From positions 3,968,001 through 4,032,000 of the forward strand of contig NZ_OZ156465.1 in assembly GCF_964212655.1 (NCBI RefSeq): DNA of 64,000 nucleotides, in the 5' to 3' direction. This document shows positions 16,247-25,999 of the stretch, piece after piece. The notes under the pieces were generated by a model. It saw only the letters and a list, made by a program, of their open reading frames with translations, was not told where the DNA came from and searched no databases. Source of the DNA: Candidatus Thiodiazotropha sp. LNASS1 (lineage in GTDB: Bacteria; Pseudomonadota; Gammaproteobacteria; Chromatiales; Chromatiaceae). The number at the start of each line of letters is the position of its first letter. Position 1 is the first letter of the stretch. Position numbers and translations under genes: made by a program.

Positions 16247-16990
16247 GTGCAAAAGTCTTGTTGCCTTATTGATACCCGAAATCTTGAGGGCCAGCTCGAG
16301 GTGGCATGCAGAGAATGTGGCCTCGATCCCATGTGTCAGGTTCTGGAGTATGCAGAGCCGGGTAGTGGTGTGCCATCCGGTATCCTGTTGAGACGACAGT
16401 CGGTAAAGAAAGGGGAGATGCTGTTCGGTGCCGAGCAGTTGTTTAAGGCTGTCTATGCCGTAAAATCGGGATCATTTAAAGCGATGATACCCGATCTCAA
16501 TCGGCAGGAACGGGTCGTTGGATTCTATCTGCCTGGTGACTTGATTGGGATCGAGGGGATGGCGAATCAACACTATTCCTACTCGGTACGGGCACTTGAG
16601 GCAGGATCCGTATGTGTATTGGACATTGGCCGGCTGACTGAAAGCGGACGCTCTACCGAGGCCATACAGCGTGCGCTGATCGATATGCTCGGGAGGGAGG
16701 TCGCATTGAATCACTCCCAAACCGCCTCATTGATACGGCAGAACGCGGATCAGCGTCTGGCTGCCTTCATCCTAGCCTTGGCGCTGCGTACCTCGTTACG
16801 TGGTCTGGGTGGAGATAGGCTCTATTTGGGCATGTCAAGAAGCGATATGGCCAGTTATCTTGGTCTGGCTCGGGAAACGGTTAGTCGGGTACTGACAAGG
16901 TTTCAGAATGAGGGATTGATCCAACTGCGGAATCAGAGTCTCATGCTGCTCAGTTGGGATGGATTGCAGCAGGTTGCAGCTTCCCGTTAG
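16247..16990 (+). CDS. fnr: FNR-type oxygen-sensing transcription regulator
   Basis: 247 residues from a GTG start; an in-frame stop lies two codons upstream, so no earlier start is possible. N-terminal cysteines at 21, 24 and 30 (C-x2-C-x5-C) plus Cys123 match the four ligands of the oxygen-labile [4Fe-4S] cluster of FNR. A cyclic-nucleotide-type beta-roll and a long dimer helix lead to a C-terminal helix-turn-helix with the FNR recognition pattern (ARETVSRVLTRF). It would activate anaerobic or microaerobic genes when oxygen is low. It lies directly upstream of ccoNOQP, where an FNR-like box is present. Confidence 0.93.
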   Translation: MQKSCCLIDTRNLEGQLEVACRECGLDPMCQVLEYAEPGSGVPSGILLRRQSVKKGEMLFGAEQLFKAVYAVKSGSFKAMIPDLNRQERVVGFYLPGDLIGIEGMANQHYSYSVRALEAGSVCVLDIGRLTESGRSTEAIQRALIDMLGREVALNHSQTASLIRQNADQRLAAFILALALRTSLRGLGGDRLYLGMSRSDMASYLGLARETVSRVLTRFQNEGLIQLRNQSLMLLSWDGLQQVAASR

Positions 16991-17157: not shown

Positions 17158-17171
17158 TTGATCTATGTCAA
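17158..17171. promoter_or_regulatory. FNR box upstream of ccoN
   Basis: TTGATCTATGTCAA matches the FNR consensus TTGAT-N4-ATCAA at 9 of 10 defined positions. It is centred about 222 bases before the ccoN start. A hexamer TATAAA at 17187-17192 could be a -10 element but is closer than the usual class II spacing, so the exact promoter is uncertain. Confidence 0.7.
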
Positions 17172-18840: not shown

Positions 18841-19554
18841 ATGGCGAATGAAAACCAATCAACAGGCTTCCAGGAGAAGATGGAGAAGAACGTTTGGTTG
18901 CTTCTGCTTATCCTGGCTTTGTCTCTTACCGTGGGCGGTATCGTCGAAATCGTACCGCTGTTTACTATGAAGTCCACCATGGAGCACAACGCTGCACCTG
19001 AACTGGTCTGGCAACGTCAGCCCGGTCAGACGCTCCATGACCATAAACCTGGTGACGGCGTGCGTCCCTATACCGCTCTTGAGCTGGCGGGGCGCGACAT
19101 CTATCAGAGAGAAGGTTGCTATACCTGCCACTCACAGATGGTCCGTCCTTTCCGTGATGAGAAAGAGCGTTACGGCCACTACTCTCTGGCATCAGAATCC
19201 ATGTACGACCATCCCTTTCAATGGGGATCCAAGCGTACCGGTCCTGACTTCGCCAGACTCGGCGGTAAATATTCCGATGACTGGCAACGCAAGCATCTGC
19301 GCGCACCGCGATCAGTTGTACCGGAGTCTGTTATGCCCAACTATCCATGGCTGAAAGATAATATGGTCGAGGGTAAGGATATGGCGGCGCGGTTCTCGGT
19401 TATGAGATTGCTGGGTGTCCCATACACCGACGAGGATATCGCCAGCGCCAACGGTGAACTGGTGGGCAAGACTGAAGAGGATGCCATGGTGGCATATCTG
19501 CAGGTCTTGGGGACCATGGCAAAGCTTGACGAGAACAAGGTCTATCGTGAGTAG
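18841..19554 (+). CDS. ccoO: cbb3-type cytochrome c oxidase subunit II (mono-heme)
   Basis: 237 residues with one N-terminal membrane anchor (about 18-40) and a periplasmic cytochrome c domain. The heme-binding motif CYTCH is at Cys93-Cys96-His97, and the likely axial methionine lies in [10 protein letters not shown]. It passes electrons from CcoP to CcoN. It starts 20 bases after ccoN. Confidence 0.97.
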
Positions 19555-19588
19555 TTTCATCGAGCATTTTCAAACTGATTGGGAGGCT

Positions 19589-19759
19589 ATGACCACCAGT
19601 GATTGGGTAGGCCTGATCATGACGGTGGTCACCTTCATACTCATGGTAGGCGTTTATTTCTACGCCTTACGTCCGAAAAATCGGGACAAGCTGGAGAAGA
19701 ACCGCTTTATCCCGATGGATGATGATGCAATTGATAGCGGAGAGAAAAATGGCGGATAA
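19589..19759 (+). CDS. ccoQ: cbb3 oxidase small subunit CcoQ
   Basis: 56 residues: one transmembrane helix (about residues 7-27) followed by the positively charged, then acidic, tail typical of CcoQ/FixQ, which stabilises the oxidase complex. The ATG at 19589 is preferred. A GTG at 19547 would overlap the ccoO stop and add 14 residues, and the GGGAGG before the ATG is rather close, so the start is not certain. The stop overlaps the ccoP start. Confidence 0.85.
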   Translation: MTTSDWVGLIMTVVTFILMVGVYFYALRPKNRDKLEKNRFIPMDDDAIDSGEKNGG

Positions 19760-20600
19760 CAATTCTTTTCCGGGTGAAAACAATACCGGACACGTGTGGG
19801 ACGACAACCTCCGGGAGCTGACCAATCCCCCACCGCGTTGGTGGATGCTGGCCTTCTGGGCCTCGGTGATCTGGTGGGTCGTTTACGGTGTTCTCTACCC
19901 CATGTGGCCAGTAGGCCATGAGTCAAACAAAGGTCTCATTGGCTGGACTCAGATGGATGAGTACATTAAGGGTGTCGATGAGGTGGAAGCGATCCGTGCC
20001 GAATTCGAGACTCAGATAAAAGGCATGTCGGCCAAGGAGATTTTGGCTGCACCTGGTCTTTCTCAGTATGCGGAAGCTTCAGCCAAGGTGCTGTTTGGCG
20101 ACAATTGTGCTGCCTGTCATGGCGGCGGTGGCCAGGGCGGTCCCGGCTATCCGGTGCTTGCTGACGATGACTGGCTCTATGGCGGTAATATTGAGGCCAT
20201 CGAACAGACCATCAGCATGGGCCGTAAAGGTATCATGACGGCACATGGCAAGATCTTGTCGGATGCTGAAATCGATAGCTTGTCAAAGGCGATCGAGGCA
20301 GGTGATCCGACGTCAGATCCCAACTTTACCCAAAAGGGCTGTATTGCTTGTCATGGCATGGACGGCAAAGGTATGGCTGTCCTGGGTTCGGCAAACCTGA
20401 CCGATGGCATATATCGCTTTGCGCCTGCTGAGGGTGAAAGCCTATTGGAAAGCATTAAGCACACCATCAAGTATGGCGTGAACGATGCGACCGAGCCAAA
20501 ATCGCGTGAAGCCGTTATGCCGAAATTCGGTGAAAGATTGTCAGCGGATGACATCAAGAAGCTGGCTGTTTATGTACACAAGTTCGGTGGCGGCCAGTAG
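19749..20600 (+). CDS. ccoP: cbb3-type cytochrome c oxidase subunit III (di-heme)
   Basis: 283 residues. One N-terminal transmembrane helix (about 31-53) preceded by the conserved HVWDDNLRELTNPPPRWW motif, then two cytochrome c domains with CAACH (Cys120-His124) and CIACH (Cys198-His202). It receives electrons from soluble cytochromes. The start at 19749 overlaps the end of ccoQ by 11 bases; upstream Met codons in frame are inside ccoQ and not supported by homology. Confidence 0.97.
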   Translation: MADNNSFPGENNTGHVWDDNLRELTNPPPRWWMLAFWASVIWWVVYGVLYPMWPVGHESNKGLIGWTQMDEYIKGVDEVEAIRAEFETQIKGMSAKEILAAPGLSQYAEASAKVLFGDNCAACHGGGGQGGPGYPVLADDDWLYGGNIEAIEQTISMGRKGIMTAHGKILSDAEIDSLSKAIEAGDPTSDPNFTQKGCIACHGMDGKGMAVLGSANLTDGIYRFAPAEGESLLESIKHTIKYGVNDATEPKSREAVMPKFGERLSADDIKKLAVYVHKFGGGQ

Positions 20601-20646: not shown

Positions 20647-20677
20647 GACCCTGTGTGACAGGAAGCCGCACAGGGTC
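20647..20677 (+). promoter_or_regulatory. intercistronic hairpin after ccoP
   Basis: Perfect 9-base arms GACCCTGTG and CACAGGGTC separated by 13 bases, 47 bases after the ccoP stop. No T-run follows, so it is not a normal terminator; it may protect or process the ccoNOQP transcript, or attenuate the following small gene. Confidence 0.55.
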
Positions 20678-20699
20678 TTAGAAGAGTTAGGGGATTGCT

Positions 20700-20825
20700 A
20701 TGAACGGAGATGCAGTATTCTGGGGTTCGATTGCAACTGTGGTTCTAGCCATAGTTATTTTCGTCTTTCTTGCATTCAAGATAAAAAGCCTCATGAAGAG
20801 TGATGCCGAAAAGCACAATAGCTGA
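20700..20825 (+). CDS. 41-residue single-helix membrane protein
   Basis: A short open frame with a good ribosome binding site (AGGGG, six bases before the ATG). It encodes MNGDAVFWGSIATVVL and continues as one hydrophobic helix (about residues 6-26) with a basic KIKSLMK end and a charged tail. It lies between ccoP and a strong terminator, so it is the last gene of the oxidase operon. It resembles small accessory subunits of cbb3 oxidases such as CcoM of Pseudomonas stutzeri in size, topology and context, but I cannot show homology. It is too short for most gene callers. Confidence 0.65.
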   Translation: MNGDAVFWGSIATVVLAIVIFVFLAFKIKSLMKSDAEKHNS

Positions 20826-20844: not shown

Positions 20845-20873
20845 AAAAAAGGGGGGGAAACCCCCCTTTTTTT
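20845..20873 (+). terminator. strong rho-independent terminator
   Basis: A-run, GGGGGG stem, GAAA-type loop, CCCCCC stem and seven T. It closes the ccoNOQP-small ORF operon 19 bases after the small gene's stop, and the A-run allows some bidirectional action. Confidence 0.93.
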
Positions 20874-21035
20874 ATGGATTAAGGATAAATTCCGGAAAAT
20901 CAGCAGTCGGAAATATGATTAGGGACGGTTGTTTAATTGATGCTAATGTATTGATAAATCGCATTGGCGTGTAATTATGCTAGCATTTATCATTTTGCCC
21001 TGAACGACATCACTGATTTCACAGGAGTTGATCCC

Positions 21036-22472
21036 TTGAGCGGAAATGAGAACACGACAGCCCAGCAGTCTGTGGTGGATGACCTTTATGCGGAGTCGGT
21101 GCATTGGCATCTCAATACCGGCGAGGAGACCATTCATGCCAAGCGCATGGGAGGTTACTGGCGCAATATTAAATGGCTGAGCGCTGCGGTTTGGATCATC
21201 TTTTTCATCGGTCCCTATTTTCAGTGGGGTGATCGGCAGGCGGTTCTTTTCGATATCCCCAACCGCCAGTTCCATATCTTGGGCATCACCATACTGCCGC
21301 AAGATTTCTGGATGCTCTCCCTGACACTGCTCTTCTTTGCCCTTTTGTTGGCAGTAGCCACTGCATTAGCCGGTCGTGTCTATTGTGGTTTTTTCTGTTT
21401 TCAGACTGTTTGGACCGATGTGTTTACCTGGTTGGAGGATAAGCTCGAGGGTTCACCCCAGAAACGGCGAAAACTTGAGAAGGCGCCCATCAGTTTCTCT
21501 AAGGTAAGAATCAAGGTAACCAAGCATATCCTCTGGCTCGTTATCTCGGTAGTGACCGGCATCAGCTTTGTCGCCTGGTTCTATGACGTCTTCGATCTAT
21601 GGCGTGATCTGTTTACTTTGCAGGCCAGCGCGGTCGCATATGGCACCATCGCATTGTTTACCGCAGGCACCTATGTCCTCGCGGGTTATATGCGTGAGCA
21701 GGCCTGCTTCTGGCTCTGTCCCTATGCCCGTATACAGGGTGTTATGATCGATAAGACGACGGTGGTACCCACCTATGATTTTCATCGCGGCGAACCTCGG
21801 GGCAGAATCAAGAAAGGGCAACCCGAAGAGGAGAGAACCACGGGGGATTGCGTCGACTGCAAACAGTGTATTGCTGTCTGTCCCACAGGTGTGGACATCC
21901 GTCATGGCCAACAGGAGGGCTGTATCATGTGCGCCCTCTGTATCGATGCCTGTGATGAGGTCATGGTGAAGATCGGTCGGCCGAAAGGCTTGATTCGATA
22001 TGAATCCTATGAGGCCTTGGAAGCGAACAAGAAACCACAACCGCTCTACAAACGGCCAAGGGTATGGATCTATGCGGCGATCATGTCGGCTGCCGTGATG
22101 GGTATAGCCTATGGATTGACCTCTCTGGCGCCGCTGGAGTTGAAGGTCATTCATGATCGTCAGCCGCTATTCGTGCTGCAGAGTGATGGCAGCATCCAGA
22201 ACAAATACACCTTGAAGATTCTCAATAAGATGACTGAGGATCTTTCGGTCAAAGTTTCGGCACAAGGGCTTGAGGGTTTGATCATGGTGGATGAGGATCA
22301 GGTGACTACCGCAAGACGTGGAAAGGTAACGGCACGGACGGTATTCCTTCGAGTACCAAAAGAGTTGTTGACCGCTGAAACCTCCCCGGTCAAGTTCACA
22401 GTGCAAGGAGAGTATGACGGCCAGCAGTTGGAAGGCAGTCGGGATAGTGTATTTATCGGCCCTAAGCGTTAG
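21036..22472 (+). CDS. ccoG: cbb3 oxidase accessory protein CcoG (FixG)
   Basis: 478 residues from a TTG start at 21036, chosen because AGGAG lies eight bases upstream; the open frame extends to 20964 with no ribosome binding site. Membrane helices carry the CGFFCFQTVW and CFWLCPYARIQG cysteine segments. A ferredoxin-type domain follows with CVDCKQCIAVCP (from Cys272) and CIMCALCIDAC. The C-terminal periplasmic domain is immunoglobulin-like. CcoG reduces copper for delivery to the oxidase. It is outside the ccoNOQP transcript, after its terminator. Confidence 0.95.
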   Translation: MSGNENTTAQQSVVDDLYAESVHWHLNTGEETIHAKRMGGYWRNIKWLSAAVWIIFFIGPYFQWGDRQAVLFDIPNRQFHILGITILPQDFWMLSLTLLFFALLLAVATALAGRVYCGFFCFQTVWTDVFTWLEDKLEGSPQKRRKLEKAPISFSKVRIKVTKHILWLVISVVTGISFVAWFYDVFDLWRDLFTLQASAVAYGTIALFTAGTYVLAGYMREQACFWLCPYARIQGVMIDKTTVVPTYDFHRGEPRGRIKKGQPEEERTTGDCVDCKQCIAVCPTGVDIRHGQQEGCIMCALCIDACDEVMVKIGRPKGLIRYESYEALEANKKPQPLYKRPRVWIYAAIMSAAVMGIAYGLTSLAPLELKVIHDRQPLFVLQSDGSIQNKYTLKILNKMTEDLSVKVSAQGLEGLIMVDEDQVTTARRGKVTARTVFLRVPKELLTAETSPVKFTVQGEYDGQQLEGSRDSVFIGPKR

Positions 22473-25795: not shown

Positions 25796-25999
25796 ATGGA
25801 TGTCATTTATGGTTTGATACCCGGCATGATTCTTTTAGGACTTGCAGCAGTCGGAGTACTGTTTTGGGCAGCCCGAAGTGGCCAGTTTGATGACCTGGAC
25901 GGGGAAGCCCACCGTATTCTGATGGACGATGACATCAAAACGACTAGGAAGAAGACAATACCCAAACAGATGATGCCGGATGCTGAAGATCAGGAGTGA
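25796..25999 (+). CDS. ccoS: cbb3 oxidase maturation protein CcoS
   Basis: 67 residues: one transmembrane helix (about 8-26) followed by the hallmark FWAARSGQFDDLDGEAHRIL of CcoS/FixS, needed for insertion of heme and copper into cbb3 oxidase. It is separated from ccoI by 213 bases in which I see no gene or terminator. Confidence 0.95.
   Translation: MDVIYGLIPGMILLGLAAVGVLFWAARSGQFDDLDGEAHRILMDDDIKTTRKKTIPKQMMPDAEDQE

Follow-up and report, generated by a model that had tools for sequence, protein, structure and literature searches.

An unnamed small-protein family, CcoM-like in character, is tied to one cbb3 oxidase lineage

Does the 41-codon frame that follows ccoP in Candidatus Thiodiazotropha sp. 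LNASS1 represent a gene and, if it does, what might its product do for the cbb3 oxidase whose genes precede it? A preliminary description of this locus proposed a membrane protein comparable to small cbb3 subunits such as CcoM. The window, which is the whole 64,000-nucleotide stretch of DNA analysed, belongs to a 4.75 Mb genome of the Candidatus Thiodiazotropha group and contains the following features:

16247..16990, plus strand: gene for an Fnr/Crp-type regulator upstream of ccoN (PF13545, PF00325, PF00027)
17158..17171, plus strand: weak FNR/ANR-like box upstream of ccoN, with one mismatch to TTGAT-N4-ATCAA
17387..18820, plus strand: ccoN (TIGR00780, 665.7 bits)
18841..19554, plus strand: ccoO (TIGR00781, 263.6 bits)
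19562..19759, plus strand: ccoQ frame, true start uncertain (PF05545, E 4.4e-6, 27.0 bits, cut-off 29)
19719..20600, plus strand: ccoP (TIGR00782, 198.9 bits)
20647..20677, plus strand: RNA hairpin between ccoP and the small gene, with compensating stem changes among congeners and no T run after it
20689..20693, plus strand: ribosome-binding site AGGGG, 6 nt 5' of the ATG (from the sequence)
20700..20825, plus strand: small gene for a 41-aa single-helix membrane protein, provisionally CcoM-like (from frame and conservation)
20845..20873, plus strand: intrinsic terminator 3' of the small gene, G7-AAA-C6-T7, terminator-like on the minus strand also
20964..22472, plus strand: ccoG frame, true start probably further in (TIGR02745, 462.5 bits)
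25799..25930, plus strand: ccoS (FixS domain), a downstream assembly gene (PF03597, E 1.5e-19)

CcoN, CcoO, CcoP and CcoG exceeded their NCBIfam cut-offs, and CcoQ fell slightly below that of Pfam. The Fnr/Crp-type regulator scored 141 bits against the NCBIfam Fnr model, below the cut-off of 228. TTGAT-N4-ATCAA is the FNR/ANR motif, and the similar box at 17158-17171 upstream of ccoN lies beside the Fnr-type regulator gene; allowing up to two mismatches, the pattern has 73 matches in the window versus 60.8 expected, an enrichment that is not clear.

The small frame opens with ATG at 20700, 99 nt downstream of the ccoP stop codon (20598-20600), and closes with TGA at 20825. Its product has a single hydrophobic stretch at about residues 5-26, and AlphaFold2, run on the single sequence, predicted one helix spanning residues 3-39 with a mean pLDDT of 86. 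The frame, ribosome-binding site, single helix and strong terminator after ccoP that the preliminary description listed are all present in the sequence. Its statement that the gene closes the operon is right as regards the terminator, but ccoG comes next on the same strand. Given that 118 open frames of at least 30 aa overlap the examined 10-kb stretch, frames of 41 codons are common by chance, and it is conservation that decides whether this one is a gene. Database searches with the window protein returned no credible match in Pfam, NCBIfam or the PDB (best Pfam E 0.18, best PDB E 0.7), and profile A1, built from 18 members, likewise had no credible match in the PDB.

A symbiont of Ctena orbiculata encodes an identical protein, and Ca. 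T. endolucinida one with 95% identity. Among 56 genomes searched, the source genome included, 30 had a match at E <= 0.1; the match in G021 (E 0.07), an 83%-complete genome in which CcoP was not found, lies inside a 389-aa frame and was rejected as a homologue. A conserved frame after ccoP in relatives, proposed earlier as a check, is indeed present: all 29 true homologues are located between ccoP (upstream) and ccoG (downstream), and 27 of these 29 frames are intact. Loci L002 and L031 were set aside as non-homologues. The gene occupies this position in all 20 sampled congeners, at full length in 18. Across the 21 genus members, the window included, the ATG start always recurs; by eye, AGGGG precedes it in 17 and a variant in four, and a terminator of G run, C run and T run follows the frame in every one.

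Selection on the frame was estimated from 19 genus members, window included, with L021 and L022 (broken or short) excluded. The median dN/dS was 0.10 and the maximum 0.38, over 113 usable, non-independent pairs out of 171; the other 58 were dropped because dS was undefined or outside 0.05-2.5. A ratio below 1, the other check named beforehand, is therefore what the genus displays. In the same 19 members, the variable columns at codon positions 1, 2 and 3 number 12, 8 and 35 of 40, and both alternative frames carry stops in every member. The small frame is a real conserved gene, and its conservation excludes chance. Frame-disrupting changes, which the preliminary description would have counted against it, do occur in relatives but are few, affecting two of the 20 congeners, with one broken frame and one loss elsewhere in the family. 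In L021 a TGA stands at codon 8, and in L022 the frame stops after 35 residues. L021 belongs to a reduced 2.6-Mb genome (G014), where the frames of CcoO (C-terminal part), CcoQ and CcoP beside the broken gene still align. The expectation that gene callers would miss so short a frame does not always hold, since some close relatives are already database entries, named 'hypothetical protein'.

Outside the genus, we searched 369 Gammaproteobacteria genomes with profile A1. Matches at E <= 1 appeared in 156 of them and were mostly weak, with 36 genomes standing out at E <= 2e-4. In 35 of these 36 the frame is flanked by ccoP and ccoG, and the copy in G113 is at a contig end. A match in G278 (E 8.0e-4), inside an 863-aa frame, was left out of the count, and G111 also carries the gene, which escaped the profile and was recognised by eye. 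In a set of named genome loci (39 placed by a fixed coordinate rule and three clipped loci judged by eye, with some genomes overlapping the other sets), the small gene directly follows ccoP in 42 of 42, and ccoG comes next in 41, the last ending with its contig. The named carriers are Thiodiazotropha, Sedimenticola, Thiohalocapsa, other Chromatiaceae and tubeworm symbionts. In 27 of 28 class-level members the length lies within 36-50 aa; Asp4 is invariant in all 28 rows of alignment A2, and V6 and V14 are nearly always kept. The C-terminal tail is basic in close relatives, and many distant members end in T-H-S-E-D. Two profile searches of the protein database gave 339 and 343 matches (343 at E <= 0.01). 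None of the entries listed (120 of the 339 and 120 of the 343) had an oxidase-related name; they had no name, were called 'hypothetical protein' or, in ten rows of the first search, bore stray annotations of automatic origin, for instance as transporters or channels.

The distribution of the gene follows that of one kind of CcoP. The CcoP of the window has matches at E <= 1e-20 in 196 of the 369 genomes, and the best 43 (E <= 3.3e-68) stand apart, the next value being 4.3e-60; the CcoP type is thus defined by a similarity cut and not by a tree. The small gene is found in 36 of these 43 genomes. Inspection established its absence from G117, G265, G143, G266, G036 and G396, and in G244 no small gene occurs within the 236 nt before the contig ends. 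The profile search found none in the other 153 CcoP genomes, and direct inspection of one ccoP locus each in 25 of the 153 revealed no family-like frame; as G111 was missed by the profile, divergent copies may also have been missed among the 128 genomes judged by profile only. When the seven top-ranked CcoP genomes in which the gene was not seen, and G195, were searched with the broader profile A2 for an unlinked copy, the best match had E 0.066 and covered 17 residues of a 40-aa frame in G266. The small gene goes with one lineage of the high-affinity cbb3 oxidases in sulfur-oxidising and related gammaproteobacteria. Because some genomes with the same CcoP type lack it, the gene cannot be required by all enzymes of this kind. 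In G024, from the family of the window genome, a ccoP of the same type runs straight into ccoG without the small gene, and G031 retains a remnant with a broken frame, owing to either decay or assembly error. The lineages that have lost or broken the gene, one reduced symbiont genome among them, offer a natural experiment. G159 carries the operon copy and also a second family member (L049, G159:C1:166810-166899), around which no cco gene lies within 1.5 kb.

The nearest known protein to the family is CcoM (PDB 5djq chain N). CcoM has been described from Pseudomonas, where it was reported to stabilise the cbb3 complex (PMC8267372) and its gene lies away from the oxidase operon. For 41 family members, with near-duplicates, L056 (96 aa) and L059 removed, hhalign gave 88.1% against CcoM, gap-free over 34 columns from Met1. 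A second hhalign alignment gave 87.6%, with Asp4 and V14 in the same register in both; with CcoM as the query and the small family as the target, the value was 67%. None of 450 shuffles of the CcoM columns (150 in each of three designs, one of them helix-only) reached the real score of 29.0, the best shuffled score being 25.3. Controls remained lower, at 21.5% for CcoQ (over 15 columns), 4.6% for CcmD, 2.0% for CcoS and 1.4% for the CcoP N-terminus, where the CcoS and CcmD sets comprised only five and seven sequences, respectively, with the CcmD locus L244 omitted. Of all the families compared profile to profile, CcoM gave the strongest match. The P. stutzeri protein has 36 aa and the window protein 41, each with a single helix from near Met1; Asp4 is invariant in both alignments, V14 is often accompanied by T or S at position 13, and a basic tail with D-A is common to CcoM and the close relatives of the small protein. 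The two differ in that the G-rich half of CcoM ending in F-I-W is, by eye, absent from the small protein, whose predicted cytoplasmic part is about four residues longer in the 87.6% alignment.

Searches of the sequence-to-profile kind detected no match linking the small family to CcoM. The NCBIfam CcoM model NF041600 (an equivalog with a cut-off of 40 bits, to which CcoM itself scores 71.7 bits) had no match to the window protein up to E 10, and our CcoM profile missed the small protein in its own genome at E <= 0.1. Among 28 relatives, NF041600 reached E 0.01 in one, no better than unrelated hydrophobic-helix models. Single members also matched Syndecan, CcmD, EYxxD motif proteins and CbiN at E 1e-2 to 1e-5, candidates that we rejected as hydrophobic-helix noise; the scatter of such matches over unrelated families limits the meaning of the single CcoM match at E 0.01. 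When single sequences were scored against the family profile, with a null of 78 of 166 ORFs left after removal of family-like ones, three CcoM sequences obtained 19.8, 22.1 and 24.4, and one CcoQ obtained 23.9, above two of the three. CcoM single-sequence and profile searches of the 369 class genomes identified a clear CcoM only in G195 and a weaker likely relative in G397. The latter (L210/L061, G397:C1:2027218-2027316) is a CcoM-like frame that stands on its own in a genome outside Pseudomonadaceae; it has a good ribosome-binding site and, by eye, an upstream palindrome resembling an Anr box. Compared with the small family, this likely CcoM relative gave 2%, and its inclusion in the CcoM alignment brought the score down a little. 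Among 44 matching Pseudomonadaceae genomes, none of 30 ccoM loci had a cco gene within 1.5 kb; as ccoM there is distant from the cco genes, the operon placement of the small gene is itself a difference. Considering that NF041600 and the CcoM profile do not detect the family, that L210 is unlike it and that one CcoQ scores so close, we do not call it CcoM; judging from the sequences, the small protein probably works like CcoM, and a distant kinship may exist.

The small gene probably encodes an accessory subunit of the cbb3 oxidase of the same operon, CcoM-like and stabilising the CcoNOP complex. The earlier guess was likewise a small subunit resembling CcoM, and position, size, topology, purifying selection, co-occurrence with the CcoP type and the profile-profile match support it as an inference from sequence data. 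The gene would be read from the ccoNOQP transcript, where the RNA after ccoP is predicted to fold into a hairpin and a separate ribosome site may start the small gene, and the transcript would end at the terminator behind it. The protein would then insert as one helix, with its acidic N-terminus outside and its C-terminus, basic in close relatives, inside. Helix orientation is governed by the positive-inside rule, which places the N-terminus of the window protein outside; given the T-H-S-E-D tails of distant members, the orientation is less clear for the family as a whole. Once inserted, the protein may pack against the CcoNOP core and stabilise the complex, as CcoM reportedly does in Pseudomonas.

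The hairpin upstream of the gene was analysed in 14 of the 21 genus members. Across these 14 sequences pairing is retained in 93.5% of the cells, with 15 cells altered on both sides and a covariation score of 0.390, and none of 500 shuffles reached the observed pairing, double-change cells or covariation score. Six of the 12 pairs change on both sides, a number also reached by 17 of the 500 shuffles. The whole gap between ccoP and the small gene in the window is only modestly stable (z -1.61). Thirty-four class loci were tried and 26 folded, three gaps shorter than 30 nt and five loci without an exact start match being left out, and 14 of the 26 had z below -2. Stable stems similarly placed, but unrelated in sequence, thus occur in a sizeable share of the other families that were folded. 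Rfam returned 13 weak matches, none of which reaches the gathering score or covers the hairpin. Since no T run follows it, the hairpin is unlikely to be a terminator; our guess is that it protects or processes the mRNA and so sets the dose of the small protein.

How far do other readings account for these data? One that we regard as possible, though doubtful, is a previously undescribed family of structural cbb3 subunits that did not arise from CcoM and marks one evolutionary type of the enzyme in sulfur-oxidising and related gammaproteobacteria, its product being translated from the ccoNOQP mRNA downstream of a conserved, dosage-setting hairpin. An assembly factor in the manner of CcoS or CcoH, which would insert heme or copper or join CcoP to CcoNO and be absent from the finished enzyme, seems unlikely. 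The gene order would suit it, with the small gene flanked by the structural genes and ccoG and ccoS lying further downstream, and in Campylobacter jejuni three genes just after ccoP, encoding CcoX, CcoY and CcoZ, are needed for normal oxidase activity according to PMC8267372. These resemble the small gene in lying directly downstream of ccoP, a comparison of position and not of sequence, and their host belongs to a different class of bacteria. Profile comparison, however, found no resemblance to CcoS or to the heme exporter subunit CcmD, and in all 21 genus members the terminator parts the small gene from ccoG and groups it with ccoNOQP. Nor did the window protein match PF03597 (CcoS/FixS) or PF04995 (CcmD), and only one of 28 relatives matched the latter (E 5.8e-4).

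Descent from a duplicated CcoQ (FixQ) is highly improbable. Like CcoQ, the small protein is short, has one helix and comes from this operon, and the single CcoQ sequence at 23.9 favours the idea, but a separate CcoQ is already encoded in the same operons, PF05545 (CcoQ/FixQ) has no match to the window protein, the spacing from the Asp to the following T-V differs and the profile match covers 15 columns, compared with 88% over 34 for CcoM. The order of a short frame, a strong terminator and ccoG, together with a weak terminator-like stem within the frame (20735-20756), might suggest a leader peptide whose translation governs the terminator and hence ccoG expression. This is scarcely credible, given that the hydrophobic amino-acid sequence is kept at a dN/dS of about 0.10 in the genus and is recognisable across families, that no run of regulatory codons was seen by eye and that the conserved hairpin precedes the frame instead of lying within it. 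Only size and hydrophobicity speak for a random open frame or for the small hydrophobic toxin of a type I toxin-antitoxin system, and the occurrence of the gene at the same place in many genera, the codon-level selection and the tie to one CcoP type leave either reading practically no chance.

One-helix partners of this size have counterparts among other respiratory enzymes. CydX and CydH are very short one-helix subunits of bd-type oxidases. CioY, a small bd-type oxidase subunit of 34 aa (PMC11955535), is also a one-helix peptide; as all three belong to another oxidase family, the likeness is one of idea only. Open-access literature on CcoM, small cbb3 subunits and proteins encoded downstream of ccoP, covered by title and opening lines of the abstract, yielded no description of the small-protein family. 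It is an unnamed family tied to one cbb3 oxidase lineage and CcoM-like, with its function inferred. If the CcoM-like reading is true, a widespread, operon-encoded family of this type would indicate that a single-helix partner is common in cbb3 oxidases, structural biologists would know which extra helix to expect and some hundreds of unnamed database proteins would gain meaning (343 at E <= 0.01, by profile match alone).

At three loci with another CcoP type (L124, L125 and L129, in G289, G400 and G100), a protein of 85-110 aa, probably with two helices, is encoded between ccoP and ccoG. The two of them scanned against Pfam had no match there, nor had the one scanned against NCBIfam, and these proteins possibly constitute a second oxidase-linked unnamed family.
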